Assembly: GCF_023518235.1 (NCBI RefSeq)
Contig: NZ_CP090423.1
Coordinates: 1,426,001 to 1,490,000 of the forward strand
DNA: 64,000 nucleotides
Reading direction: 5' to 3'
From: Stenotrophomonas maltophilia
GTDB lineage: Bacteria; Pseudomonadota; Gammaproteobacteria; Xanthomonadales; Xanthomonadaceae
The notes beneath the pieces were generated by a model. That model had not been told where the DNA came from. It ran no database searches and worked only from the letters and a program-made list of their open reading frames with translations. Each line of letters starts with the position of its first letter. Position 1 is the stretch's first letter. Made by a program: the position numbers and the translations under genes. This document shows, piece by piece, positions 49,636-64,000 of this stretch.

Positions 49636-50400
49636 ATGAGTGCTTCAGACGCAGACTCCCTGCACAGCAAAGTGGCCGCGGTCACCCTCGGCTTCTGGGT
49701 GATGAAGATCGCCGCCACCACCCTCGGCGAGACCGCCGGCGACCTGCTGTCGATGACGCTCAACCTGGGTTACGTGGCCAGCTCGGCCATTCTGCTGACC
49801 ATCTTCGCCGGCCTGCTGGGCATGCAGTTGTCGGCACGGCGCTTCCACCCGGTGCTGTTCTGGTCGGTGGTGCTGGCCACCAGCACCGCCGGCACGACGA
49901 TGTCCGACCTGCTCGACCGCACGCTCGGCCTGGGTTACGCCACCGGTGCCAGCCTGCTGGCCGGTTGCCTGGCGCTGGTGCTGCTGGTCTGGCGGGTGTC
50001 GGAAAAGTCGATCTCGGTCAGCAACATCGCATCGCGCCGCGCCGAAGGCTTCTACTGGACCGCCGTGTTGGTCTCCAACACGCTCGGCACCGCGCTGGGT
50101 GATTTCCTCGCCGACGATTCCGGGCTCGGCTTCACCGGCGGCGCGCTGCTGATCGGCAGCCTCATCGCGCTCACCGCGCTGGCCAGCCGCATCAAGGGCA
50201 TCAACCGGGTCATCCTGTTCTGGATCGCCTTTGTACTCACCCGCCCGTTCGGCGCCACCTTCGGCGACCTGCTCACCAAGCCGCTGGAAAAGGGCGGGCT
50301 GGGCTTCGGCACGGTCGGCTCGTCGCTGGTGCTGTTCACCATCCTGGTAACGCTGGTGGCACTGCCGATGCTGCAGCGGCGCACGCAACCGGCACACTAA
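49636..50400 (+). CDS. COG4705-type multi-pass membrane protein
   Basis: 254 residues with seven to eight helices. Internal repeats are seen: LGFWVMKIAATTLGETAGDLLSMTLNLGY, FYWTAVLVSNTLGTALGDFLADDSGLGF and FWIAFVLTRPFGATFGDLLTKP share a T-G-x-x-x-G/D-D motif at each helix pair. This pattern is that of the uncharacterised COG4705 membrane proteins, some linked to manganese or sugar-alcohol stress by annotation only. Function unknown. It ends within 4 bp of the convergent dehydrogenase gene. Confidence 0.78.
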   Translation: MSASDADSLHSKVAAVTLGFWVMKIAATTLGETAGDLLSMTLNLGYVASSAILLTIFAGLLGMQLSARRFHPVLFWSVVLATSTAGTTMSDLLDRTLGLGYATGASLLAGCLALVLLVWRVSEKSISVSNIASRRAEGFYWTAVLVSNTLGTALGDFLADDSGLGFTGGALLIGSLIALTALASRIKGINRVILFWIAFVLTRPFGATFGDLLTKPLEKGGLGFGTVGSSLVLFTILVTLVALPMLQRRTQPAH

Positions 50401-51179
50401 CGGGCCGTCCAGCCCCCATCCACCGGCAGCGCCGTACCGGTGATCTGCGCCGCGGCGTCCGAGGCCAGGAACACCACCATCTCGCCCAGCTGCTCGGGCG
50501 TCACGAACTGCAACGAAGGCTGCTTTTCGGCCAGCAGCGCGCGGGCGGCGGTTTCCTGATCCGTGCCGTCCTTCTCCGCCAACGCGGTGATCTGTTGCTC
50601 GACCAGCGCGGTTCGCACCCAGCCCGGGCAGATGGCGTTGGCGGTGATGCCCGTACCTGCATTCTCCAGAGCGGTCACCTTGGTGAAGCCCACCACGCCA
50701 TGCTTGGCCGCCACATAGGCGGACTTGTTCACCGAGCCCACCAGTCCGTGTACCGACGCGATGTTGATGATGCGGCCGGCGCCCTGCTGCTTCATGTGCG
50801 GCAAGGCGGCCGCCGTTGCATGGAACACCGCCGACAGGTTCAGCGCCAGGATCGCATCCCATTTTTCGACCGGGAATTCCTCGATCGATGCGATGTGCTG
50901 GATGCCGGCGTTGTTCACCAGGATGTCGATGCGGCCCATCTTCGCCACGGCGTGGTCGATCAGTCCGCGCACCGCCTCGCCGCGCGACAGGTCCGCGCCG
51001 TCATGCGCCACCCGCACCCCGAACTCGGCTTCCAGTCCGGTACGGATGCGTTCGATCTCCGCCGCATCGCCGAAGCCGTTCAGCACGATATCGGCACCTT
51101 GCCGCGCCAGCGCGGTGGCAATACCAAGACCAATACCGCTGGTGGAACCGGTAACCACCGCAACCTTTCCAGAGAACAT
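50397..51179 (-). CDS. 3-hydroxybutyrate dehydrogenase
   Basis: 260-residue classical SDR that interconverts D-3-hydroxybutyrate and acetoacetate. Cofactor loop VVTGSTSGIGLGIA, NNAGIQHIASIEEFPVEKWD, the Ser motif IINIASVHGLVGSVNKSAYVAAKHGVVG with the Tyr/Lys pair, and NAICPGWVRTALVEQQI, which is close to known BdhA proteins. ATG 51179 has a GGAAGC ribosome site 7 bases upstream. It is convergent with the COG4705 gene, sharing 4 bases at the stops. Confidence 0.9.
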   Translation of the reverse strand: MFSGKVAVVTGSTSGIGLGIATALARQGADIVLNGFGDAAEIERIRTGLEAEFGVRVAHDGADLSRGEAVRGLIDHAVAKMGRIDILVNNAGIQHIASIEEFPVEKWDAILALNLSAVFHATAAALPHMKQQGAGRIINIASVHGLVGSVNKSAYVAAKHGVVGFTKVTALENAGTGITANAICPGWVRTALVEQQITALAEKDGTDQETAARALLAEKQPSLQFVTPEQLGEMVVFLASDAAAQITGTALPVDGGWTAR

Positions 51180-51211
51180 GGGTGAGCTTCCATCGGGCAT
51201 GGGCCACCAGT

Positions 51212-51242
51212 GTAGCCCCGTGCCTCCACGCCACGCGTGGAT
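51212..51242 (+). repeat. Degenerate SMAG repeat
   Basis: GTAG at 51212 is followed after 9 bases by a 7-bp stem TCCACGC-CAC-GCGTGGA (51225-51241). It lies in the divergent gap before the dehydrogenase gene. Confidence 0.5.
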
Positions 51243-51306
51243 GCTCCCCCTCGGCATAAATCCACATTCCCCCTATAGTCACCACCATCCACCCAAGGAT
51301 GGCTCG

Positions 51307-52683
51307 ATGAACCCCTGCAAGGCCCTGCTGCCCGCCGTTGTCGCCGCACTGCTCGCCCCTGCCATCAGCCAGGCCGCCTTGCCCGCGCAGCCAGCCACAC
51401 CGCTCACCACCGGTAGCGTGCGCGTGGATATCGCGACCGGCCGCGTAGAGGGCGATGTGTGCGTATCCAATGCCCCCGCCAACGCCCAAGCCCACTTCGT
51501 GCTCAACGCCGGCCTGAACGTCGCTCGGGTCACCGATGGCGAAGGCAGGCCGGTCGGGTTCGATGGCTGGTACGACCCGGGCGTGGATGGCGAAGCGCGC
51601 GTCTACACCCTGGCCGAACCCACCACCAAGATCTGCGTGCAGTACGTCGGCGCGTTCCCGCTGTACCCGAAGCACGATGCCCTGGGCGACTTCAAAGGCA
51701 TGATGGCCTTCAACGGCGACAGCGCGCGCTTCACCGAGCAGTCCGCGTGGCTGCCGCAGGCGTTCGATCCCAAGGCCCGCGTGCGCAGCAACCAAAGCCG
51801 CTACGACCTGCAGGTGGATTGCGCCGGCTGCCGCTTCCTGTATCTCAACGGCAGCCCGGCCATCGAAGGCGCGCAGGGGCGATTCCGCAGCGACAACGCG
51901 CGGCCCATCCTGCTGTTCGGCGGCAGCGGCCCGATCACCCGCACCGCGCAGGTCACCATCCTCAGTGAGACCCTGCCCGCCGCCAAGGTCGATGCACTGT
52001 CCAATACGGTGCAGAAAGTGGCCGACGTGCACAGCCGCTACATGGGCGTGCCGCTGGCCGACCGCCCCACTTTCCTGCGCATGGTCACGCTCAACCAGAT
52101 CGAGCGCGACCGCGAAGGCAGCGAATGGGGCTTTGCTACCTGGCCGACCATCGCCATGAGCGGCAGCATCGGCAACGTGGCCGATTCACTGCTGGCCGGT
52201 GGCGAGAACGCCGACCGCCGCGTGCAGTACATCGCGCACGAAATGGGCCACTACTACTTCGGTACGCTGAACCGTCCGCAGGGCCCCTACTTCTGGGTGC
52301 TGCTGGAATCCAGCGCCGAGTTCCTGTCGATCAAAGCCCTGCGCGAGATCAGTGGCGATGCGGCGGCCGACCGCTATATCGCCGGGTTACAGGCGGCCGT
52401 CGACAAGCAGAGCACGCCGCTGCCGCCATTCGATGCCGTCGACGGCAGCGCGGACCTGGGTGAGATGTATCGCTACGTCTATGGCCCGTTGCTGCTGCTC
52501 TCGCTGGAAAAGCAGGTGGGTGAGGCGAAGATGCAGGCCTTCATGCGCGGGCTGCTGGCTGCGCCTTCGCCGAAGAGCTGGGCGGAGCTGCAGGCCGTCG
52601 CACTGAAGGCTGGCATCGATGCCAAGGCCTTGGAGCATTGGCGGGCAAGCTGTGTGGCTGACGGCAGGCAGAGATGCCAGTAG
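51307..52683 (+). CDS. Secreted zinc metallopeptidase-like protein (HEMGH motif)
   Basis: 458 residues with a signal peptide (NPCKALLPAVVAALLAPAISQA). The zinc motif QYIAHEMGHYYF is near residue 315, and a downstream Glu in FWVLLESSAEFLSIKAL, 20 or more residues away, could be the third ligand, as in gluzincins (M1/M61). N-terminal beta domain contains three Cys pairs-like segments (VCVSN, TKICVQYVG, DCAGCRF). It probably acts in the periplasm; the substrate is unknown. The stop TAG lies inside the GTAG of a SMAG repeat. Confidence 0.75.
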   Translation: MNPCKALLPAVVAALLAPAISQAALPAQPATPLTTGSVRVDIATGRVEGDVCVSNAPANAQAHFVLNAGLNVARVTDGEGRPVGFDGWYDPGVDGEARVYTLAEPTTKICVQYVGAFPLYPKHDALGDFKGMMAFNGDSARFTEQSAWLPQAFDPKARVRSNQSRYDLQVDCAGCRFLYLNGSPAIEGAQGRFRSDNARPILLFGGSGPITRTAQVTILSETLPAAKVDALSNTVQKVADVHSRYMGVPLADRPTFLRMVTLNQIERDREGSEWGFATWPTIAMSGSIGNVADSLLAGGENADRRVQYIAHEMGHYYFGTLNRPQGPYFWVLLESSAEFLSIKALREISGDAAADRYIAGLQAAVDKQSTPLPPFDAVDGSADLGEMYRYVYGPLLLLSLEKQVGEAKMQAFMRGLLAAPSPKSWAELQAVALKAGIDAKALEHWRASCVADGRQRCQ

Positions 52684-52702
52684 ATCCACGCCATGCGTGG
52701 AT
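52680..52702 (+). repeat. SMAG repeat at the end of the peptidase gene
   Basis: GTAG then ATCCACGC-CAT-GCGTGGAT, a perfect 8-bp stem. Its TAG is the stop codon of the peptidase gene. Confidence 0.88.
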
Positions 52703-52810
52703 TCACTGCCTCAACATCCGCATATCTGAATCATCCAGCACTGTGTCCAAGGCAACCCGCCCTCCTAGCCCCTCTATTTGCCAATCAGCGCCGCTGATAT
52801 CGCCGCACAA

Positions 52811-53290
52811 TCAGAAGAACAGACCCGCTCGCTCAACGGTCGCGAGCCGATTGGCCTTCCGTACCGCCTCCAGGAACAGCAGGAAATCGCGGTTTAACAG
52901 GGTCAGGTTGTTGGTAAACGTCACGCACTTTCTGCCCGAAGCTTTGCTGAAGCACACCTGCCAGACATAGCGTCCGTAGATCCTGTCGGACGTTCGCGTG
53001 ACTGAGGTGATCTGCGAAAGCGGAACCGCCGTGGGTACCGGGCCCCGCCGCAGGTAGAAGGATTCTGTATCAAAGAAATAGTGCTCGCGATCCTCTTTGC
53101 CATCCACCATCACCAAGGTCATGGATGTACCGGAGATCCGGCGAGGAGGATCCAAACGCAGCCCCGATTTCACGGACGAGCGAGCAGTTGCCGACATTCG
53201 CCGAAGGGTAAACCAGAGGATCACCAACGGAAGTGCGGCAAGGACAATGAAACCTACGGTCTTCAAAACAGTTTCCAGCGTGCTTGGCAC
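52811..53290 (-). CDS. Small membrane protein with PH-like domain, function unknown
   Basis: 159 residues. One N-terminal helix (TVGFIVLAALPLVILWFTL) anchors a soluble beta-rich region: HYFFDTESFYLRRGPVPTAVPLSQITSVTRTSDRIYGRYVWQVCFSKASGRKCVTFTNNL resembles a bacterial pleckstrin-homology-like fold. I do not recognise a family. It stands alone between two SMAG repeats (52680 and 53327), with slightly lower GC than its neighbours. Nothing in the context suggests a function. Confidence 0.65.
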   Translation of the reverse strand: MPSTLETVLKTVGFIVLAALPLVILWFTLRRMSATARSSVKSGLRLDPPRRISGTSMTLVMVDGKEDREHYFFDTESFYLRRGPVPTAVPLSQITSVTRTSDRIYGRYVWQVCFSKASGRKCVTFTNNLTLLNRDFLLFLEAVRKANRLATVERAGLFF

Positions 53291-53326
53291 ACAGATCTCC
53301 AGGATGAACTTTCAGGCGATGCCCGA

Positions 53327-53349
53327 GTAGATCCACGCCATGCGTGGAT
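53327..53349 (+). repeat. SMAG repeat
   Basis: GTAG then ATCCACGC-CAT-GCGTGGAT, identical to the copy at 52680. It lies between two leftward genes. Confidence 0.88.
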
Positions 53350-53369
53350 GACTCTCCCTCAACGCCCTT

Positions 53370-54107
53370 TCACTTCCAATGATCCGGCCCCAGGAACGGC
53401 AGGCTCAACACAAACACCGGAACCGCCACAGGCGCCAACGCCGCGCCCAGCACTTTGCCTGCCGCCGTCCCAGCACCCGGCTTGTCCGTATCGTCCGGCC
53501 GGATCCGCTCAGCCCGCGCGGTAATCGGCTGCGCCAGCTTCGCCTTCGCGGCCAACGAAGCAGCGTCAGGCAGTTTCACCCGCTCGCCATCACTCTCGAA
53601 CAGCGCGCTGTAGTAGCTGCCGCCCTGCCTGGAAAGATTGCAGTCCGGGTTGGCCGCCAGCTCGTAGCGGCTCCGGGCTTCAAGGATGTACGGCTGGCGC
53701 GTCAACGCAGCGATGGCCTTGGCCACCCGCGGGCTGATCTCCAACCGCTCCAGCTTGAACTGCGCCGCCTGCTCCGGTGTCACCTGCTCCGGCCGCAGCA
53801 GCAGCGCGTAGCTGCCATGCACCTTGGTCCTGTCGGCCGGCACGCGCCAGTCCTCACGGAAGTACAGCTGCGCGCAGACCACAGCCTCGCGCAGCGGGCT
53901 GTCCATCAGGGCGCGGTAATCACGGAACGGCGCGGCGTCGAAGCGCATCGGTTCGTCATAGACCGGCAACAGGTACAGCTTGCCGTCGTCGGCCACGAAC
54001 GCGCCGGTGATCTCGCGATTGGAATGGTGGTAGTCCGGACCACTGGCGCAACCAGACAGCAGGCCAAGGCACAGTGCGGAGAGAATGAAGAAGATGGACG
54101 TTCGCAT
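53370..54107 (-). CDS. Lipoprotein of unknown function
   Basis: 245 residues from the ATG at 54107. The signal peptide ends in a lipobox, LLSGC, near residue 20, so the mature protein is lipid-anchored. The body (ITGAFVADDGKLYLLPVYDEPMRFD, VHGSYALLLRPEQVTPEQAAQFKLERLEIS) is unfamiliar to me. The C-terminus is hydrophobic (AAGKVLGAALAPVAVPVFVLSLPFLGP), probably a second membrane helix. The longer frame upstream runs into a region without ribosome site. Confidence 0.72.
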   Translation of the reverse strand: MRTSIFFILSALCLGLLSGCASGPDYHHSNREITGAFVADDGKLYLLPVYDEPMRFDAAPFRDYRALMDSPLREAVVCAQLYFREDWRVPADRTKVHGSYALLLRPEQVTPEQAAQFKLERLEISPRVAKAIAALTRQPYILEARSRYELAANPDCNLSRQGGSYYSALFESDGERVKLPDAASLAAKAKLAQPITARAERIRPDDTDKPGAGTAAGKVLGAALAPVAVPVFVLSLPFLGPDHWK

Positions 54108-54205
54108 GTCGTAGTGAAGGGCTTCCCTGGAAAACCGGCCCCGCCCATAAGGTCGAGGCCAGTCCGCCATGGTGCCACGGCACTGCATGCGATGCAGAGC
54201 CTGCC

Positions 54206-55076
<871 letters not shown>

Positions 55077-55078
55077 TT

Positions 55079-55103
55079 ATTCATCGCCCCAGCGGCGATA
55101 AAT
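55079..55103. promoter_or_regulatory. LysR-type operator between the PfpI and LysR genes
   Basis: Arms ATTCATCGCC and GGCGATAAAT around 5 central bases make a 25-bp inverted repeat with one mismatch, in the 96-bp divergent gap. Size and position fit a LysR recognition site. Confidence 0.6.
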
Positions 55104-55141
55104 TGGCCCCCTCGCAAAACATTTGTTCGCCGGAGAGCCAA

Positions 55142-56059
55142 ATGAGCCGCAAGTTCGACTACCTGGGCGATGTGGAGGTGTTCCTGGCAGTGGTCGAGCA
55201 CGGCTCGTTCACCGCTGGCGCGGTGGCGCTGTCCACCACGCCCTCGGTGCTGAGCCGCGCGGTCACCCGCCTGGAAGCGCGGCTGGGCCGACAGCTGCTG
55301 CAGCGGACCACCCGCCGCGTGGGCCTGACCGACGCCGGGCGGCTCTATCTGGAACAGGTGCGCACCGCCTTCAGCCTGCTGGACGACGCCGAGCGCGACG
55401 TGCTGGCCCAGGACGGTGCGCTGGCCGGCCGCGTGCGCCTGAGCGTGCCCACCACCTATGGCCACTACCGGCTGCCGCCCGTGCTGGCGCGCTTTGCGCA
55501 GCAGTACCCGCAGGTGCAGGTGGAACTGAACATCACCAACCGCAACGTGGACCTGGTGGCCGAAGGCTTCGACCTGGCCATCCGATTGGGGCAGCTGCCG
55601 GACAGCGGGCTGGTGGGGCGGAAGCTGGAGGATGCGCCTTTGGTGCTGGTGGCTTCGCCGGAGTACCTGCAGCGTCGGGGCACGCCGCAGACGCTGGAGG
55701 ATCTGCAGCAGCACCTGTGCCTGCCCTTCGTGATGCCGCGCACCGGGCGACTTGCCCCGTGGATCTTCCGCGACGGCGGGCGCGACGTGGACTGGCTGCC
55801 GCGTTCGTCCATCGAGACCTCCGACGATGTGCTGGGCGTGGTGTCACTGGCCGAACAGGGCATCGGCATCTGCCAGAGCTATGCGTTCATCGTGCGCGAG
55901 CGGTTGATGCGTGGGGAACTGGTGGAAGTGTTGCCGCAGCTGCGGGGACGGTCGCGGCCGTTCTCGGTGATCTATGCGCCGCATCGGCGGCAGTCGGCGG
56001 CGGCGCGGGCAATGATTGAGTTGCTGGTGGGGAATGCGGGTGAGAGTGGCGCCGGTTGA
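55142..56059 (+). CDS. LysR-family transcriptional regulator
   Basis: 305 residues. The N-terminal HTH reads DVEVFLAVVEHGSFTAGAVALSTTPSVLSRAVTRLEARLGRQLLQRTTRRVGLTDAGR, and the substrate domain has RVRLSVPTTYGHYRLPPVLARFAQQYPQVQVELNITNRNVDLVAEGFDLAIRLG, typical of the CrgA-like LysR subgroup. It is divergent from the PfpI gene with a shared dyad. The co-inducer is unknown. Confidence 0.9.
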   Translation: MSRKFDYLGDVEVFLAVVEHGSFTAGAVALSTTPSVLSRAVTRLEARLGRQLLQRTTRRVGLTDAGRLYLEQVRTAFSLLDDAERDVLAQDGALAGRVRLSVPTTYGHYRLPPVLARFAQQYPQVQVELNITNRNVDLVAEGFDLAIRLGQLPDSGLVGRKLEDAPLVLVASPEYLQRRGTPQTLEDLQQHLCLPFVMPRTGRLAPWIFRDGGRDVDWLPRSSIETSDDVLGVVSLAEQGIGICQSYAFIVRERLMRGELVEVLPQLRGRSRPFSVIYAPHRRQSAAARAMIELLVGNAGESGAG

Positions 56060-56610
56060 AGCCGGGGGCTTGTTAACGGTGTCGGGTTTGAACCGCTTTT
56101 CGGGGTCTGCGGCTGATTCGACGCCGTTGCTTGGCGAGGCGGACTAAGAACTGTTGCAAAGAAGGCCGTCGCGCTATTCGCTTATGGCGCGGGCGATTGC
56201 GTCATTCAGAATCGCAATCAACAGAGCAGCTGCGCGAATGCGTCTGGCGGTGTCGCGTGCTGCACGCATGGTGCGTGCCACAATAGTTCTTCGCTCTCGA
56301 ATTCCGCGATTCCTTCGCGAATTTCTATTGGCATTCGGAGCGAGCGCATAAACAACATGGCGCGCCACCGACAAGGGGTGGCCGGGTCTGCAAACCCGCA
56401 TTGATGTACGCGTCTGTAGTTTGCGCTTGCCCGTCGGCACCGTCCTTAACCGGTGCCGGCGGGCAATCCGTCGGCCTTTCTGGCGGGCGGTGCGTGGGGA
56501 TCTTCGGATCCACCGGTTCTATGACGCTACATCATCCCGGTTTGCAGCCATGCATCGTCCGCCACCTCTTCACGGTGGCGCTGTTAAGCACAGCCACGGA
56601 AGCCGACGCC
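56060..56610. other. 551-bp stretch with a leader resembling Ash/Icd-like phage sequences
   Basis: No firmly supported gene. A 15-codon frame at 56358-56404 encodes MARHRQGVAGSANPH and stops as TGATG over the next ATG at 56404, from which an open frame runs on into the gene at 56611. The GWPGS/GVAGSANP-type peptide recalls the leaders of Ash/Icd-like genes in P4-type and other prophages. A small hairpin CGGGT-ctgcaa-ACCCG is at 56382-56397. The opposing frame at 56174-56440 is Arg-rich and unconvincing. It marks the left edge of the defence island. Confidence 0.4.
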
Positions 56611-56967
56611 ATGAACGAATCCGACACCTTCTCCTCGTACACCGTTGTTGAACCCATCAACGACGACGCCTCCCTGCCCGACTTGAACTACCTCTTGGGC
56701 ATCCTCAAGCGCATGCGCGGCTGCGAAGGGGCAGATGGGCACCCGTGGCCGGAAACCGATGTGTCGCCCGGCCGCCGCGTGAGTCTGGCCAGGAGTGAGC
56801 GCGCGATGGTCGGGGCGCTGACTGTGCTGGAGCTGCTGCACGCGGCAGACCGCTGCCGGGTGGCAGCGGACCCGGAGCGGCATCTTGATGAGGGGGTGGT
56901 TGATGGGTTGTTTCTGGCTTGCCGTGGGTTGGTTGAGTGGGCTTGTCGGGAGGTCAGGCCGGAGTGA
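56611..56967 (+). CDS. Small hypothetical protein of probable mobile-element origin
   Basis: 118 residues from the ATG at 56611 (GGAAG site upstream). The body is largely helical: NYLLGILKRMRGCEGAD, SLARSERAMVGALTVLELLHAADRC, LFLACRGLVEWACREV. No family is recognised with confidence. The open frame is continuous back to 56404, giving a possible 188-residue product, but the upstream part (SLTGAGGQSVGLSGGRCVGIF) looks like a leader. Its context is the entry to the defence island. Confidence 0.5.
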   Translation: MNESDTFSSYTVVEPINDDASLPDLNYLLGILKRMRGCEGADGHPWPETDVSPGRRVSLARSERAMVGALTVLELLHAADRCRVAADPERHLDEGVVDGLFLACRGLVEWACREVRPE

Positions 56968-56992
56968 TATCCACCGGTCTTCTATAGATACC

Positions 56993-57014
56993 GAGGGCAC
57001 CTCTAAGTGCCCTC
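56993..57014. terminator. Hairpin after the small hypothetical gene
   Basis: Perfect 8-bp stem, GAGGGCAC and GTGCCCTC, with the 6-base loop CTCTAA, 26 bp past the stop codon of the gene at 56611. It is followed by AATTCT, not by a clear T-run, so terminator strength is uncertain. The 210 bp from here to the DRT gene stop hold nothing else I can support. Confidence 0.5.
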
Positions 57015-57224
57015 AATTCTCAAATCAAGGTCAACCGGCCATCAGCTTGAACGTTATGTTGAGTGATCGAAAATGAGACATCCCCGTCACTTCCACCGCC
57101 AGAAGCACGCATCGTTTCGCGACAGGATCGCGAGTTGAAGTCGCTCTGAACGACTGCATTTGACGCTACAGAGTCGAGTTCGTGCAAACTAGCGCGGGGC
57201 ACCAGATGAAGCAGGACTCACATA

Positions 57225-60200
57225 TCACTCCCCCAAAGGCAATATCTTTCGCCGATGATCCATCGCATCATTGAACCCATCCGGCACCGGCTTGAATGGT
57301 TTTGCTGGTGAGCGGTGGCTGCTTTGGAATTGACGCAACGCTTGCACATCGATTTCGCCAATCACGCAGTAATCGGTGACCCCGCCTTTGACCCGCAGCA
57401 CATCACGCTTCCAACTGTCCTTGTAAGGGGCGCGGATGCGGCTGTCGCCGTACTGCCTATCATTGCATTGGATGATGTAGGCATGGATATCCAATGCTGC
57501 GGACTCAACCAATGCATTGAAGGTTTCGGTATCTGGATTCCATTCCGGAACGAACAGCGCATCCACTTTGCCACGCAGATCAGCGCGATAGCGAATGTTG
57601 GTCAGTTCGCTGCAGATCAACATGGTGAAGCGAAAGTCGCCGTGCTGAATGATGGGCGGTGTTTTCCAGGCCTTGTCCGGCTTCATCTCCAATCCGGCCA
57701 GCCGCTGCAATTCTTGCTCTTCATGGAGGGCGGGCCGCTGCTTGTCCTGACGGTAGATCATAAGCGAGGGAAAGCCCAGACCGTCATGGGAGAGCGCTGC
57801 CCAAACCTGATTGCGGACCCGCGACTTGCTGGCGTGCAGATATTCGATGCCCGTAACTAGCGAAATTCCCCGGCCTTGCAGCTTTCGAGCGATACGAATG
57901 AACCAGTGCGCGGGCAGTGCCAATTCCGGCAAGATCAGATAGCGGCTGTCCCTGGGCTGGGCGATTACGCCATCCAGCAGGCGACAAAGGCGCACATAGC
58001 GTTCGGCGTCGGGATCCGGCATGCGCATCACACTAGCTGTCCAGCTATCCAGACTTGTTTGCCAACTGGATACGGCAATACTGCATTTCCTTGGAGTTAC
58101 ACCATCTGGTACTTGCAGTACGTTGTTTTTATCGAAGAGAGGCGTTTTCTCTCCCAACTCAAAGCCACGCACAGACAATACTACCGCCCGCATATCGTCC
58201 TGCGTCGCCTCTAAATAAGCATGGCGATTAAGAATAAATAGCTCCGGCAGATTGAAGGGCCGAGTCGCGAACGGCAGCCCCTGCGGCAATTGCTTGAAGC
58301 CGATCCACTGGGTAACTGTCTGCGCGCCCTCGAATACAGCGCTAGACAACAACTCGGCAGCTTTGTCGCAGCCTACAATGGTCTTTTTGGCGGGGATACC
58401 GCGCTGCGCCACCATTTCCTTCGGCAGCCCGATGAAGCGGAATGGCAGATGTGCAAGGTCAAGCGAGAACAGGCGGGCCTGCTGTGCTTGAAAGCTTTTT
58501 ACGGATAACGGCCAGGACAGAAAAGCATCAAGGTCAATGACGGGATGACAGTCGGCCATATAGGTCTTCCACGCCTGTTTGCCTGCTTTGGACAAGCGGG
58601 GAGGAAATGCGGCCGTTATGCTTTCCCGAACACTGGAAAAAAGCTGCCCTTTCCAGCGATCCAGCATCTCCGTAGCGTTCGGCTTACTCTTTTTCTCATG
58701 CCACGCTTTGACACTGATGTCGCATTGCTCCTGTACCTGCTGGCAGAGTCTTTGCAGCGCTTCGATAATTCGGCGTAGATCGGCAAAGTCTTCACAGGCC
58801 GTGGCGAGGCGAATGACTCGGGGCAGATAGACAGCCAAGTCGAAAAACTGCGGTAACACCAACACGTGCTGGGTGAAGGCGCGGAAGAACGCGCGACGAT
58901 GTGCTGCCCAGGCTTCGGGCAAAAGATCGCGTTCATAGGCTTCGAAGTCGCGAAGTTTTATGGCGAAGCCTGCCCGACGCATGGTCAGCGCATCCGCATT
59001 GCGCAGGTTGTCGGCGGCCTCGCCGTCGCTTTGTGTGGCGGCCAACAGATCGGTGCCAACATGCGTAGCGGATCGAGGCAACCGCGGCATGGCTCGCCAC
59101 TCGCTGGCGCGTTCGTAAATCTGATGAGCAATGGCGTCCGCCAAGGTCTTGCCCGGCTCACCGGCCAGAATGAATACCTTGTTCTTGCCATTGGCAAAAC
59201 GCACCCGGCTTTTACTCCTACCTTTGCTAAGGTAAGCGGGCCTGAAGCGAACTTGCTTTTTACTTTGATCCACCCAGCCCAGCATTTCGTTTGACCGGTC
59301 AAACAGCCATTCCCATAAATCCAGCGTCGAATCGAAGCCAGCCCCGTTCTCCATGACTAGCAAAATGTCATCGACGTATCGCCCGTAATAGATGGGAGCA
59401 ACCTGATGTTCGATGCAGCGATCCAGCTCGACCAGCGCCATGTTGGCGACAATAGCCGATGCCGGCAGCCCCACGGGTAAGCCTTTCTTCAACGGGGTTG
59501 CTGCTGCCCAGGCCTGCAATGCATGAATGAACAAGCGGTGTAGTTTTTTCTTTCTCCTATTCAGCTTTATGCCAAGTATTTCCTTTCTAAAACTTGGATT
59601 CAACATGAAGCCAGGATTCAGCTCGTGATAGAAAGAGCTGACATCCGCAGTTAATGCCACAATCTTTTTGTCGGCATCCAGCGCGGCACGCATGGCGGCA
59701 ATACCCTTGTCACGCCAGTCGCGAAAGGGCTTCAGATAAGGCTGGAACGAACCAAGCGACAGCTTATTGATGCCTTTTCCATCTTGAGTGCGGCGCAAGC
59801 GGTTGCCATATGCGCACTCGCTCAATCTTGCATCGAATAACTGCCCGACTTCCAGCATCCATAAGGTGGAGAGCACATGAAAGTCCAGGCTGCATCGGGC
59901 CATTATTCGGAATTCGGCTTTTGGCTTTTCTGGCACTTCCTTCTCAGCCAAGGCTTTCAACGCATGCTGCCACTCATCAATGGGCGAGGAGAAAATCAAT
60001 CCACCGCCATTCTCTTTCTTGTACTTCGCCCAGCAATCCATCTCGACGGACTTGGTGACCAGTGTCCAAGTGCCTATGAATTCCGGTGATGTCACCCAGG
60101 CTTCGTCTTCGCCATTGATCTTTTCCTGCAGCAAGGAAAGGTTGGAATGCAAATTTTCTTCATAGTTTGCAATATCATCCAGAGAGGCATGGGACGAATA

Positions 60201-60257
60201 ATAGAGATCAACTTTCGCCTTGCGATAGGCGAGGCCCAGATCTTGCAGGTTGGTCAT
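57225..60257 (-). CDS. drt1: Reverse transcriptase-nitrilase fusion, DRT type 1 (UG1) antiphage protein
   Basis: 1010 residues. The N-terminal RT domain has motif A ALTADVSSFYHEL (Asp 205), motif B KGLPVGLPASAIVANMAL (258-275) and catalytic YVDD at 294-297. A helical middle region (about 400-700) joins a C-terminal nitrilase-like domain with the expected triad: Glu 778 in YLILPELALP, Lys 839 in MIYRQDKQRP and Cys 882 in MLICSELTN. This domain order defines defence-associated RT type 1 (UG1 class), shown in other bacteria to give phage resistance. It lies 86 bp after hsdS on the same strand. The region is AT-richer than the chromosome. Confidence 0.88.
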   Translation of the reverse strand: MTNLQDLGLAYRKAKVDLYYSSHASLDDIANYEENLHSNLSLLQEKINGEDEAWVTSPEFIGTWTLVTKSVEMDCWAKYKKENGGGLIFSSPIDEWQHALKALAEKEVPEKPKAEFRIMARCSLDFHVLSTLWMLEVGQLFDARLSECAYGNRLRRTQDGKGINKLSLGSFQPYLKPFRDWRDKGIAAMRAALDADKKIVALTADVSSFYHELNPGFMLNPSFRKEILGIKLNRRKKKLHRLFIHALQAWAAATPLKKGLPVGLPASAIVANMALVELDRCIEHQVAPIYYGRYVDDILLVMENGAGFDSTLDLWEWLFDRSNEMLGWVDQSKKQVRFRPAYLSKGRSKSRVRFANGKNKVFILAGEPGKTLADAIAHQIYERASEWRAMPRLPRSATHVGTDLLAATQSDGEAADNLRNADALTMRRAGFAIKLRDFEAYERDLLPEAWAAHRRAFFRAFTQHVLVLPQFFDLAVYLPRVIRLATACEDFADLRRIIEALQRLCQQVQEQCDISVKAWHEKKSKPNATEMLDRWKGQLFSSVRESITAAFPPRLSKAGKQAWKTYMADCHPVIDLDAFLSWPLSVKSFQAQQARLFSLDLAHLPFRFIGLPKEMVAQRGIPAKKTIVGCDKAAELLSSAVFEGAQTVTQWIGFKQLPQGLPFATRPFNLPELFILNRHAYLEATQDDMRAVVLSVRGFELGEKTPLFDKNNVLQVPDGVTPRKCSIAVSSWQTSLDSWTASVMRMPDPDAERYVRLCRLLDGVIAQPRDSRYLILPELALPAHWFIRIARKLQGRGISLVTGIEYLHASKSRVRNQVWAALSHDGLGFPSLMIYRQDKQRPALHEEQELQRLAGLEMKPDKAWKTPPIIQHGDFRFTMLICSELTNIRYRADLRGKVDALFVPEWNPDTETFNALVESAALDIHAYIIQCNDRQYGDSRIRAPYKDSWKRDVLRVKGGVTDYCVIGEIDVQALRQFQSSHRSPAKPFKPVPDGFNDAMDHRRKILPLGE

Positions 60258-60343
60258 TTTATTATCTCATTACTAGCTCTAGTCCTCTTCTGGCACCTCC
60301 CAGTCCTGCGAACGTGCCTCTCGCTGCCATGCAAATTTCACCG

Positions 60344-62692
60344 TTAATCAAAGCCCAATCTTGATTGCTGCACGGTTCTCGGTGGCAGTCCGAGAGGAAT
60401 GATGTTCTCTCTGCGTAGCCAATCAAGCCATCGCCCAAGTTCGGCCGGTGTGAAGCGTGCTTTGCGCTCGTGCCAGTTTTCGCGAACATCGGAGATGATC
60501 TGCGCATCCGTCGGTTGAACACCATCGATCAGAAAATCGTTCCATACCGCGAAAAGTGTGGCGATGATCTCGACTTCTTCGGTCTTCTTGTCTGCCAGGG
60601 CGTAGATCAGACGGTCAAATTCAGTCTTCTGGCCGGGCGACATCAGTGCTTCGGCTTTCGCTGCTGGCTCCGACAACGCCGACAAACAGCGGTATTCCGT
60701 CTTTTTCCCGCCGTTAGCCAAGGTCTTTTCATTGACTTCGAACCAGCGCTTGTCTTGACCTTGCCGCTCGAAATCATAAATCCAGGTATCCAGTGGCCCA
60801 GCAGCTTCACGTTCGGGTTTCAGATTCAGTTCCAAGCCGACGTGCGCTTGCGCCAAGTACATTACCTTGGCGGCGGCAGTGCGACCGAAGTATTGGGCAG
60901 TGGCGAGCTTGTTGATCGTATAGCAGCCGATGCACGCGCGGTAGGTGGCGAGGTCAATAACTTGGGCTGTTGAACGTGATGATCGCTGGGTATCTTCAAC
61001 TGCGCCACCTTGCGATTGCGCACGAACCAGAGCACTCAGCAATTCTGTCTGCTTGCTGGTGTTGGCGTCGATCTGCTGCTCTAGCGAGTCACATAGAGCC
61101 ATAATTGCGTCTATTTTCTCAACGATGCGGTGCTGTTCGGAAAGTGGCGGGAGTGGGACTAATGTTTCCTTCACCTTACGAACATTCAGATTAGGCTGCG
61201 CAGCCCCTTCCGCCATTTTTCGTATTTCCTCATAGATCTTTATAAAGAAATACTTCAGGTACTTCTTCACGCCGATGGAAGAGTCAAAAAATACCATGGC
61301 GGCAATCGCCTGGTTTGTGGCCCCAGCAATTGTCAATTCGCTTATTTGGCCCCTTGTTTTTCCTTGACCATATAGTGCAATAATTAAAGAGCCCGAAGGA
61401 AAAACCTTGCAGTTGGTTTCTTTTATTGCCTTTTCTGTAATAAAGGTTTCTGGCTTGCCAGCAAACGACTTATTCGTTGCAGAGCTAGTGTACCAGGGCA
61501 CGTCCCCACCATAATAATCTCTATTTGTTGTAGCAGGAGTTGAACCAGTTCCAACATCAACTATATCGATAACACGCACCCACTCCCACCCCCGCGGCAA
61601 CGTATACGGTTTTTCTTCCTCTGTCACTGGTGGCAAAGGCTTGGGCTTTTTGATCTTACCTTCCTTCACCAGACGCTGTTTCTCAACCTCGATCTCTTTC
61701 AACAATTCGCTGGCGGGCTGCTCGTCCGAGTTTTGCGGGACGAGTTTGCCCATCACCGCCAGTTGCAGGATGGCCTTGCGGAGTTCGGCGACGTTTTCCT
61801 TGACGGTGTAGAGCTCGCCGAAGTTTTCGGCGAGGAAGGCCAGAGCGCGCTGGTGCTGGTCGGGTTCGGCGATGTTCAGCAGTTGCTTGATGGCCGCGTT
61901 ATGGACGATCAGGCGTTTTTCCTGCTGTGCATTGCGGATCCTTTCTAGTTCGTCACAGCGTGCAATCAGTTCATCAAATTTATTAACGATACGGGCTTGC
62001 TCTTCCATAGGAGGAATAGCAATCGGATACGCCAAGAAAGGACCTCTATTGATATGCGTCATAACTAGTCCATGCGCATGATCACTTTCAGCCAATTGGC
62101 GTATTACCCATTTCAGAAGCCAGAACAAATACTTTTTGTTTACAAGCGAAGCTGGCAGCACTCGGAAAATATGTTGATTAAGTACACCTTCTTCTCCATG
62201 CCAAATGTAGGCATCAAGTGTTGCCGACCAGGAAACGAGAATATCGCCTTTTTTCACCAAAATGGATTGATCAAAATCTTTTCGGGTTCGATTAAATACT
62301 GAACTTCGACCCGAAAGATTCTGAATTCTAATGATAGGCCGGCCAGTCTTATCCCAGTCACTTTGTTTAAATGCCGCGCCATTGATGAACTGCCCTAAAT
62401 CAACAAGCCTGCACCACGCCCACGTACTTGGTGGGTGAAAGCGTTTCTCACTTTCTTCGATAGAAGCGGCGGCCTTTTCTCTCTTGACACCTCCTCCATT
62501 CATTGCTTCTACCATTCGAGCACGGCTGCGCTCCAACAGTTCATTGGCAGGCTGATCGTTCGGATCCTGCGGCACCAGCTTGCCCTGCATGGCCAGCGTC
62601 AGGATCAGCTCGCGCAGTTTCTTGATGCCATCTGGTGCGGAAAAGGCGGTATCGAAGTGCTTTTCCAGCAATTCGGCCGTGTGCTTATTCAT
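60344..62692 (-). CDS. hsdS: Type I restriction-modification specificity subunit with C-terminal extension
   Basis: 782 residues; ordinary HsdS proteins have 400-600. Two target-recognition domains (about 90-260 and 395-545) are each preceded by a copy of a LVPQ-x3-DQPA-x-ELL motif, and each is followed by a conserved helix with (M/L)(E/S)EQ-x-RIV-x-K. From about 600 to the end is an extra domain (FGRTAAAKVMYLAQAHVGLEL, FERQGQDKRWFEVNEKTL, NDFLIDGVQPTDAQIISDVRENWHE). The ATG at 62692 has a GGGAGG ribosome site. It overlaps the YhcG gene by 8 bases. Local AT-rich stretches lie in the second TRD. Confidence 0.87.
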   Translation of the reverse strand: MNKHTAELLEKHFDTAFSAPDGIKKLRELILTLAMQGKLVPQDPNDQPANELLERSRARMVEAMNGGGVKREKAAASIEESEKRFHPPSTWAWCRLVDLGQFINGAAFKQSDWDKTGRPIIRIQNLSGRSSVFNRTRKDFDQSILVKKGDILVSWSATLDAYIWHGEEGVLNQHIFRVLPASLVNKKYLFWLLKWVIRQLAESDHAHGLVMTHINRGPFLAYPIAIPPMEEQARIVNKFDELIARCDELERIRNAQQEKRLIVHNAAIKQLLNIAEPDQHQRALAFLAENFGELYTVKENVAELRKAILQLAVMGKLVPQNSDEQPASELLKEIEVEKQRLVKEGKIKKPKPLPPVTEEEKPYTLPRGWEWVRVIDIVDVGTGSTPATTNRDYYGGDVPWYTSSATNKSFAGKPETFITEKAIKETNCKVFPSGSLIIALYGQGKTRGQISELTIAGATNQAIAAMVFFDSSIGVKKYLKYFFIKIYEEIRKMAEGAAQPNLNVRKVKETLVPLPPLSEQHRIVEKIDAIMALCDSLEQQIDANTSKQTELLSALVRAQSQGGAVEDTQRSSRSTAQVIDLATYRACIGCYTINKLATAQYFGRTAAAKVMYLAQAHVGLELNLKPEREAAGPLDTWIYDFERQGQDKRWFEVNEKTLANGGKKTEYRCLSALSEPAAKAEALMSPGQKTEFDRLIYALADKKTEEVEIIATLFAVWNDFLIDGVQPTDAQIISDVRENWHERKARFTPAELGRWLDWLRRENIIPLGLPPRTVQQSRLGFD

Positions 62693-63725
62693 GATCGCCT
62701 CCCAGTTCACGTTCGATCTGTTCGATGCTGGGCAGGCTGGTTTTCAGTTCTTCAGGAAGGGATTCAATCAATTGGTATTCCGCCCCGCCTATAGGCTGGG
62801 TCTTGTCGCGCAATGCGTATTCGGCCACCACGGTGTTCTTGCTCTTGCACAGCAATAAGCCGATGGTGGGGTTGTCCTGTTCGGCCTTTACCTGCATATC
62901 CACGGCGGTGAGGTAAAAGCTCAAATGGCCAAGGTGCTGCGGTTTGAACTTCTCGGCTTTCAGCTCGATGACCACGTAGCAGCGCAGCTTTAGGTGGTAG
63001 AACAACAGGTCGATAAAGAAGTCGTCACCGCCTACTTCCAGATGAACCTGGCGGCCGACGAAAGCGAAGCCCGCACCCAGCTCCAGCAAGAACTGGGTTA
63101 TGTGTTTGATCAGCGCTGACTCGATATCCCGTTCGTTCGCTTCCTGGCCAACGTGCAGGAAGTCGAACAGGTAGGGATCTTTGAGGACTTGCCGGGCCAG
63201 ATCGGTTCCCTGCGCGGGGAGACGCTCGGCGAAGTTGGTGATCGCCTGGCCTTCCCGCTCCAGCAAATGGGATTCGATATGAATTTCCAATGTGGCGCGT
63301 GACCAGCCCTGTTCCACGGCGCGCTGGGCATAGGCCAGGCGCTGTTCGGGTTGCTTCAGTCTGGCCAGCAACACCAGGTTGTGGCCCCAGGGCAATTGTC
63401 CAACAGCCTGTTGGACAACTGCCGCGTCCGGCCAGGCGTCGGCGAAGGAACGCATGTACATCAGGTTGGCGCGGGAAAAGCCCTTCATCTCGGGAAAGGC
63501 TGTCCTGAGGTCGTGCGCAAGCCGCTCGATGACCTTGGCTCCCCAGCCCTGCTCGGCCTGCCGTTGCAGGATGTCACGACCGATCTGCCAGTAGAGATGT
63601 ACCAGCTCGCGGTTAACGGCCAGCGCGGCCCGCTGCTGGGCACTGTGGATGCGGTTCTTCAGCTCGCCCAACCAGTTGGCGTAGCCTTCCGGGGCCGACA
63701 CGAGAGACACGGGCTTGTCGCTCAT
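62685..63725 (-). CDS. yhcG: YhcG/DUF1016 PD-(D/E)XK nuclease-family protein
   Basis: 346 residues. The N-terminal DUF1016 domain has NRELVHLYWQIGRDI, WGAKVIERLAHDL and FPEMKGFSRANLMYMRSFADAWPD. The C-terminal half is a PD-(D/E)XK-like nuclease: GGDDFFIDLLFYHLKLRCYVVIELKAEKFKPQHLG, with the Asp and ELK catalytic residues. Such genes often sit between hsdM and hsdS of type I systems and may act as an accessory nuclease. It overlaps hsdM and hsdS by a few bases each. Confidence 0.87.
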   Translation of the reverse strand: MSDKPVSLVSAPEGYANWLGELKNRIHSAQQRAALAVNRELVHLYWQIGRDILQRQAEQGWGAKVIERLAHDLRTAFPEMKGFSRANLMYMRSFADAWPDAAVVQQAVGQLPWGHNLVLLARLKQPEQRLAYAQRAVEQGWSRATLEIHIESHLLEREGQAITNFAERLPAQGTDLARQVLKDPYLFDFLHVGQEANERDIESALIKHITQFLLELGAGFAFVGRQVHLEVGGDDFFIDLLFYHLKLRCYVVIELKAEKFKPQHLGHLSFYLTAVDMQVKAEQDNPTIGLLLCKSKNTVVAEYALRDKTQPIGGAEYQLIESLPEELKTSLPSIEQIERELGGDHE

Positions 63726-64000
63726 TCCGCCTCTCCGCTGGTGGCCTTGAGCGCGGCCAGCAGTTCGGTTTTCAGCGCTTGCTGGGCAGCGTGCAACTGG
63801 CGGGTGATGTCCTGGTATTCGGCCATCAGCTCGTCCGGATCCACCAGTTCGACGGCCACCTCATGCGGGTTCTTGCAGGCCAGGTTGTAGCTGCGAGCAG
63901 CCAGATCCTTGGCAGGTACCTTCCAGGCATGCTCGGTAATCTTGCGTCCCTTACGCTGCGGGCCGCCCCACCAGGACTTCTCAAGGTCGAACTCCTCAAT
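63722..64000 (-). CDS. hsdM: Type I DNA methyltransferase subunit HsdM, C-terminus only
   Basis: Only the last 92 residues are in the window; the gene continues past the right edge. The sequence includes DLEKSWWGGPQRKGRKITEHAWKV and SYNLACKNPHEVAVELVDPDELMAEY, a typical C-terminal region of HsdM with the DPDEL segment. A coiled-coil follows. The TGA overlaps the YhcG ATG (ATGA), so the genes form one unit. The hsdR gene is not in the window. Confidence 0.82.
   Translation of the reverse strand: MEEFDLEKSWWGGPQRKGRKITEHAWKVPAKDLAARSYNLACKNPHEVAVELVDPDELMAEYQDITRQLHAAQQALKTELLAALKATSGEAE

Follow-up and report, generated by a model that had tools for sequence, protein, structure and literature searches.

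Nitrilase-bearing reverse transcriptases (RTs) occur among the class 3 defence-associated reverse transcriptases (DRTs), a group of which some members are now biochemically described. DRT1, DRT5S and DRT5L synthesise DNA without a template; in DRT1, an RT of the UG1 group, synthesis is protein-primed on Ser402, mutants of the RT and of the Cys lose defence, and the C-terminal tail, or lid, is essential (PMC13275509). UG5 RTs with a fused nitrilase are described in the sections of PMC8934634 used here, and a UG5 RT-nitrilase accompanied by a transmembrane protein appears, in the corresponding sections of Rousset et al. (2022; PMC9122126), among E. coli systems with measured defence. Effectors embedded in restriction-modification (RM) and bacteriophage exclusion (BREX) systems are known in general (passages of PMC12839542 and PMC12629846). 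This article describes a member of the already known UG5 RT-nitrilase family in Stenotrophomonas maltophilia, encoded in a 64,000-nucleotide stretch of contig NZ_CP090423.1 (positions 1,426,001 to 1,490,000; hereafter the window) by the last gene of a type I RM operon, and the RM and BREX genes beside its relatives. The protein probably forms a self-contained second layer of defence within a mobile operon.

Family assignment and operon context

An earlier note on this DNA had recognised an RT-nitrilase fusion and assigned it to UG1/DRT type 1. The fusion is confirmed, and the assignment has to be replaced. Among PADLOC models the whole protein matches RT_UG5-nitrilase (PDLC03780) with 1045.9 bits over residues 2-1007, against 157.3 bits for the second-ranked match (residues 738-996) and 93.7 bits for Drt1a. 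The RT part without the nitrilase scores 613 bits with UG5-nitrilase, 88 with UG5-small and 74 with a second UG5-nitrilase model, followed by UG36 (56), Drt3a (54) and Drt1a (32.7), and the nitrilase part alone scores 417 bits with UG5-nitrilase and 64.8 with Drt1a. On these profiles the protein is assigned to UG5-large (UG5-nitrilase, class 3 UG/Abi DRT), outside UG1 by profile comparison rather than by an RT tree that includes UG1. It shows no visible difference from the described UG5-large proteins, and the RM operon context is what the window case adds.

Membership in UG1 retains next to no probability. The layout of RT and nitrilase is common to both groups, and a profile built from the alignment of relatives reaches the solved DRT1 (PDB 9yfd; E 4.7e-17), with Cys882 on Cys1116 and the YVDD motifs aligned, but the profiles put the whole protein and its RT part in UG5. 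DRT1 resembles the window protein in carrying RT and nitrilase in one chain and in its conserved C-terminal tail; it differs in RT group and in length (1229 against 1010 residues) (PMC13275509).

The catalytic residues of RT and nitrilase are invariant in 48 of 48 rows of the alignment of relatives, which bears out the motif A Asp (D205), the YVDD motif (294-297) and the triad Glu778-Lys839-Cys882 named in the earlier note. The note's view of a likely anti-phage protein is supported. Glu846 is equally invariant and, from its spacing, is a candidate fourth member of a catalytic tetrad. The tail contains eight invariant residues (R975, Q978, S979, K989, P990, P992, F995 and R1003). Within residues 298-469, Ser385 is the sole Ser, Thr or Tyr of the window protein that is identical in every row; it lies 88 residues past the last Asp of YVDD, and DRT1 Ser402 lies 77 past D325. 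By analogy with DRT1, Ser385 may be the priming residue and the C-terminal tail the lid. The Ser402 region falls outside the alignment between the window protein and 9yfd, and the block 381-390 around Ser385 is modelled with lower confidence (mean predicted local distance difference test score, 58). The statement, also made earlier, that the product of UG1/DRT1 and the role of its nitrilase are poorly understood is partly outdated by the 2026 DRT1 paper (PMC13275509), and holds for the nitrilase substrate, which is unknown there.

The operon, which had escaped mention before, reads hsdR-hsdM-yhcG-hsdS-RT, all on the same strand, and the RT gene is presumably co-transcribed with the RM genes; a simple sigma-70 scan of 56900-64000 listed no minus-strand site, and no further recognised operon gene was found downstream of the RT gene. 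Mostly beyond the window lies hsdM (L005 9723-11201), and wholly beyond it hsdR (805 aa; L005 11227-13644), preceded by guaA. The GC fraction of the five operon genes is 0.50-0.59, compared with 0.65 for window positions 1-56900 and for guaA. In four relatives with full-length genes (L006, L007, L026 and L051), identity to the window proteins is 91-98% for HsdR, HsdM and YhcG and 52-57% for HsdS, as is expected when target recognition domains are exchanged, and the sequences indicate an RM operon that moves as a unit. The gap between hsdS and the RT gene is alike in four operons, all closely related, and the likeness carries little weight.

Among 5426 E. coli genomes, 968 carry a relative of HsdM whose DNA is 60-80% identical, and the three examined belong to operons annotated as the EcoAI/FtnUII family. 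A search with the window hsdS in 250 genomes of the order gave only two distant matches besides itself, so that the same RM system with and without the RT cannot be compared within the order.

Neighbours of the relatives and the divided pglX

Relatives were collected by one scan of an 84,980-species collection with peptide words of the window protein, and the 46 obtained are therefore its nearer kin, of 47% identity and up; a homologue search, in which part of the candidates were scored, lists 120 of 1053. By profiles of RM and BREX genes, the 47 loci (the window and 46 relatives) comprise 12 with type I RM, 14 with BREX and 18 with neither, while three (L031, L039 and L046) adjoin the second half of PglX on a short contig; 29 of the 47 thus stand in or beside RM or BREX genes. 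A recognised HsdM or PglX methyltransferase gene is present in the flank of 26. As a control, the Pfam family N6_Mtase has 197 matches in 253 Mb (94 genomes of the class), which puts about 1.6% of random places within 10 kb of one, in a calculation that uses a single family and another method than the locus profiles and ignores defence islands and relatedness, so that its binomial tail does not give a fair probability. Drt1a and Drt2, taken as neighbourhood controls, had a match in 0 and 2 of 369 genomes at the limits used, too few for the purpose.

On a tree of 44 RT-nitrilases, from which the cut or broken RTs of L023, L027, L046 and L048-L051 were left out, the RM context changes five times (at least three on well-supported branches) and the BREX context eight times (at least six), where a change may be a gain or a loss. 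Taken together, the labels require 13 changes, below every one of 200 shuffles; the label for neither system, which includes cut contigs, is barely clustered, with values as low in 69 of 500 shuffles. Long branches were flagged for L059, L042, L037 and L057. Partners have been exchanged even among close RTs: in L008, L010, L013 and L035 the RT is 74-80% identical to the window's and HsdR/HsdM 25-29% over part of their length, which indicates that the RT moved between distinct RM families. In L041 the corresponding values are 72% for the RT and 60-61% for HsdR/HsdM.

The BREX loci show a particular arrangement. In 11 of the 14, pglX consists of two open reading frames (ORFs) with the RT gene between them, at the boundary of the methyltransferase and specificity parts; in the other three (L024, L029 and L050) it is a single ORF placed before the RT gene. 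The operon of L014 runs BrxA, BrxB, BrxC, PglX first half, HEC-02A, HEC-02B, RT, PglX second half, HEC-05, PglZ, BrxL, and its PglX halves correspond to residues 1-602 and 596-1176 of the undivided PglX of L029, so that nothing was lost in the division. For comparison, 12 RT-free BREX loci were taken (four from the class sample and eight of the top 10 plasmid matches). With L082 (pglX in pieces) and L089 (truncated) left out, all 10 with intact pglX carry it as a single ORF, a difference with p 1.5e-4 in a Fisher test that ignores relatedness. PADLOC holds separate half-length PglX models, and divided PglX proteins have therefore been collected before.

According to the passages of Went et al. 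used here (PMC11341690), PglX recognises its motif through a C-terminal domain similar to the specificity subunits of type I systems. Most such loci thus have the RT close to the specificity half, either next to it or separated by accessory genes; in the window and the majority of RM loci it follows hsdS. This would suit a direct guard like PrrC on EcoprrI, bound to the methyltransferase-specificity complex (HsdM/HsdS or the PglX halves) and silent until a phage anti-restriction protein inactivates that complex. PrrC, as presented in passages of PMC2610378 and PMC3506569, is a precedent for an effector encoded within a type I RM locus. It is, however, a nuclease of tRNA anticodons that carries an ABC ATPase domain and is always linked to type Ic RM (PMC2610378), whereas the window gene encodes an RT-nitrilase, whose physical silencing by RM would be hypothetical. 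The present relatives lack such invariable linkage, and in some loci, L007, L013, L017 and L041 among them, other genes intervene. Since RTs close to the window's sit with the distant HsdR/HsdM described above, with BREX or with no recognised partner, a guard would have to recognise very different complexes, and we consider it unlikely. An equally speculative extension would make the UG5 RT-nitrilases a dedicated death switch of N6-methyltransferase defence, docked on the methyltransferase-specificity unit; BREX pglX would have been cut into M-like and S-like genes to build the RT in, and a phage that eliminated or inhibited the unit would thereby free the nitrilase, as one alarm for type I RM and BREX alike.

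The same loci may be read without any functional tie: a defence gene that works independently would have settled in accessory slots of RM and BREX operons because these move often. Similar slots hold YhcG, PDC-S11, HEC-02 and HEC-05, AAA ATPase or SymE genes follow hsdS in related E. coli operons, copies without a recognised partner exist, and the guaA locus swaps whole systems. The organisation of the BREX operons nevertheless goes beyond neighbourhood: 4-bp overlaps join the RT gene to the recognised upstream gene in 9 of 13 loci, to the downstream gene in 7 and to both in 4, pglX was divided without loss, and the pairing recurs on separate branches. Mere co-residence is accordingly doubtful.

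A probable second layer of defence and its weaknesses

The reading we favour, and hold to be rather probable, is that of a UG5-large class 3 DRT acting as a self-contained second layer; it is preferred to a direct guard or to no tie because close RT relatives occur beside very different partners or no recognised ones. The RT would synthesise short DNA without a template, its own chain serving as primer with Ser385 as candidate residue, and the DNA-bearing protein would assemble with the nitrilase ready but shut by the conserved C-terminal tail. Replication activity of a phage would free the protein, whereupon the nitrilase would hydrolyse an essential small molecule and stop the infected cell, an abortive infection with the nitrilase as effector. 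Expressed together with RM, or with BREX in the relatives, it would form a second line against phages that pass restriction. We infer the trigger, the nitrilase substrate and the second-line role, and a regulatory coupling to RM or BREX is hypothetical. The pairing fits the idea of immunity-suicide coupling (Makarova et al., 2012; passages of PMC3506569) and the case of PrrC.

Several observations weigh against it. In 18 of the 47 loci the profiles used recognise neither RM nor BREX genes beside the RT. At least five of these are cut short (L042 and L034), decayed (L048 and L049) or broken (L023), but others, such as L022, L025, L032 and L037, offer enough space and still show no partner that is recognised, so that a partner is not obligatory. 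Two of three divergent UG5 proteins taken as outgroup (30-31% identity) lack an RM or BREX gene nearby, and for the third (L059) the sole candidate, 3.2 kb upstream, is a weak PglX-like match of 80 bits. In the window itself the RT gene does not overlap hsdS, from which it is 86 bp distant. The closely related operon of Pusillimonas caeni (L051 1627-11990) combines full-length hsdR, hsdM, yhcG and hsdS with a decayed RT, and the RM system can thus outlive the RT. On the biochemical side, DRT1 stands apart in its Ser402, which is not conserved in the other class 3 DRTs (PMC13275509), so priming in the window protein may use another residue; DRT5L of that paper is equated with UG5-nitrilase from its name; and DRT1 (9yfd) was not among the best 50 matches of either fold search (library to 2026-04-08). 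No gene for a transmembrane partner, such as Rousset et al. describe in their UG5 system, was found in the window operon. That system, from P4-like satellites, has the same UG5 RT with a C-terminal nitrilase according to the sections of PMC9122126 used, and differs in its transmembrane partner and in residing on a phage satellite instead of an RM operon; the two are likened by description.

A further alternative gives the RT-made DNA a use in the RM or BREX machinery, where it might offer the specificity subunit an unmethylated bait or a scaffold. Placement near specificity subunits is all that speaks for it; the adducts of DRT1 are short, A-rich and free of a sequence motif (PMC13275509), and no sign of contact with the RM enzyme was seen here. 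We regard it as very improbable.

No mention of RT-nitrilases recurring within RM and BREX operons, or of a pglX split by the RT gene, was found in the literature searched, namely passages of PMC12839542, PMC9716671, PMC11206119, PMC13064858, PMC12629846, PMC12255303, PMC12489045, PMC9122126 and PMC8934634 without their supplements, though Mestre et al. (2022; UG/Abi) and the preprint of Payne et al. (2024; embedded defences) may describe UG5 there. The BREX survey PMC12839542 describes, in the sections used, auxiliary or backup effectors whose genes, like the RT-nitrilase, lie within BREX core loci; it differs in listing nucleases as effectors, and the words "reverse transcriptase", "nitrilase" and "split" do not occur in its main text. 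The association described here links defence enzymes that make DNA, and whose trigger is known only in part, with two systems based on methylation for which inhibitors such as Ocr are described, which makes a coupling directly testable. It also provides a naturally split PglX of BREX, with one gene for the methyltransferase and one for the specificity part, which can help in studying the organisation of PglX. In annotation, UG5 replaces UG1, and the operon is marked as a possible two-layer system.

Features of the window and the variable locus after guaA

Table 1. Coordinates (window positions) of the RT-nitrilase gene, its domains and residues, and adjacent features.
Feature	Position	Strand	Source
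UG5-large RT-nitrilase gene, 1010 aa	57225..60257	(-)	PADLOC
RVT_1 core, residues 169-305	59343..59753	(-)	domain search
RT motif A Asp205, invariant 48/48 rows	59643..59645	(-)	alignment
RT motif YVDD, residues 294-297	59367..59378	(-)	alignment
Ser385, candidate DNA-priming residue	59103..59105	(-)	alignment
Nitrilase domain, residues 720-998	57264..58100	(-)	
Nitrilase Glu778	57924..57926	(-)	alignment
Nitrilase Lys839	57741..57743	(-)	alignment
Glu846, invariant, candidate fourth catalytic residue	57720..57722	(-)	alignment
Nitrilase Cys882, aligned with DRT1 Cys1116	57612..57614	(-)	alignment
C-terminal tail, residues 975-1007, candidate counterpart of DRT1 lid	57237..57335	(-)	
Gap between hsdS and RT gene, 86 bp	60258..60343	(-)	
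hsdS, type I specificity subunit, 788 aa	60344..62710	(-)	PADLOC, Pfam
YhcG/DUF1016 PDDEXK nuclease gene (PADLOC PDC-S02), 346 aa	62685..63725	(-)	
hsdM (492 aa), 3' end in window	63722..64000	(-)	
Right edge of variable locus, where window homology resumes	56401..56967	(+)	14 relatives fetched

The operon occupies a variable locus which extends from guaA (L005 13912) to window position 56967. From 40 other genomes of the genus with guaA, 14 loci were fetched; all 14 have 2.3-14.3 kb after the end of guaA without a match to the window operon (>80 bp, E 1e-10), and in all homology resumes near 56967, with a weaker first stretch (77%) in L069. PADLOC, applied to 10 of the 14, recognised defence genes in eight: Gabija (L066), type I RM (L065, L068 and L071), PDC-S06 (L067), a PifA-like gene with an AriAB fusion (L070), E1-E2 (L063) and a DrmD-like gene (L076). 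The proteins at the guaA locus of L069 and L075 gave no PADLOC match. UG5-nitrilase itself is present in 2 of 41 genomes of the genus and 4 of 369 of the class, the window's own counted in both. Carriage by phages was considered and dropped, since at E 1e-5 none of 50,697 phage records matched.

At the right edge of the locus, a C4 antisense RNA (Rfam RF01695; 58.9 bits, cut-off 45) lies at 56476-56569 (+) and overlaps a same-strand ORF of 188 aa (56401-56967, +). At Rfam's own cut-offs it is the only match in 50000-64000, past the 3' end of the RT gene, and a separate RNA partner beside the RT was discarded, no other Rfam match being present.

Some further features of the operon and its relatives deserve mention. 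HsdS continues for about 220 residues (564-788) past its last Pfam recognition domain, a stretch that one PADLOC specificity model covers. Between hsdS and the RT gene, L007 (9014-9988) and L051 hold a gene of 318-324 aa, whose L007 copy has no Pfam or PADLOC match. In Nitrosomonas oligotropha (L009 9118-14215) the RT-nitrilase gene lies between a zeta-toxin-like ATPase gene and a Fic gene, not RM genes. On E. coli plasmid NZ_CP146678.1 (L057 9959-13168), a distant UG5-nitrilase, which is about 30% identical and scores 1034 bits with the UG5 model, adjoins a toxin-antitoxin pair of the AbiE type; genes for phage tails lie further along. The S. maltophilia genome of the window also encodes a retron type III-A-like RT (396 bits; L002 1243-2298, C1 near 2889780) and an RT of 575 aa (L001), whose best match is a generic RT model.

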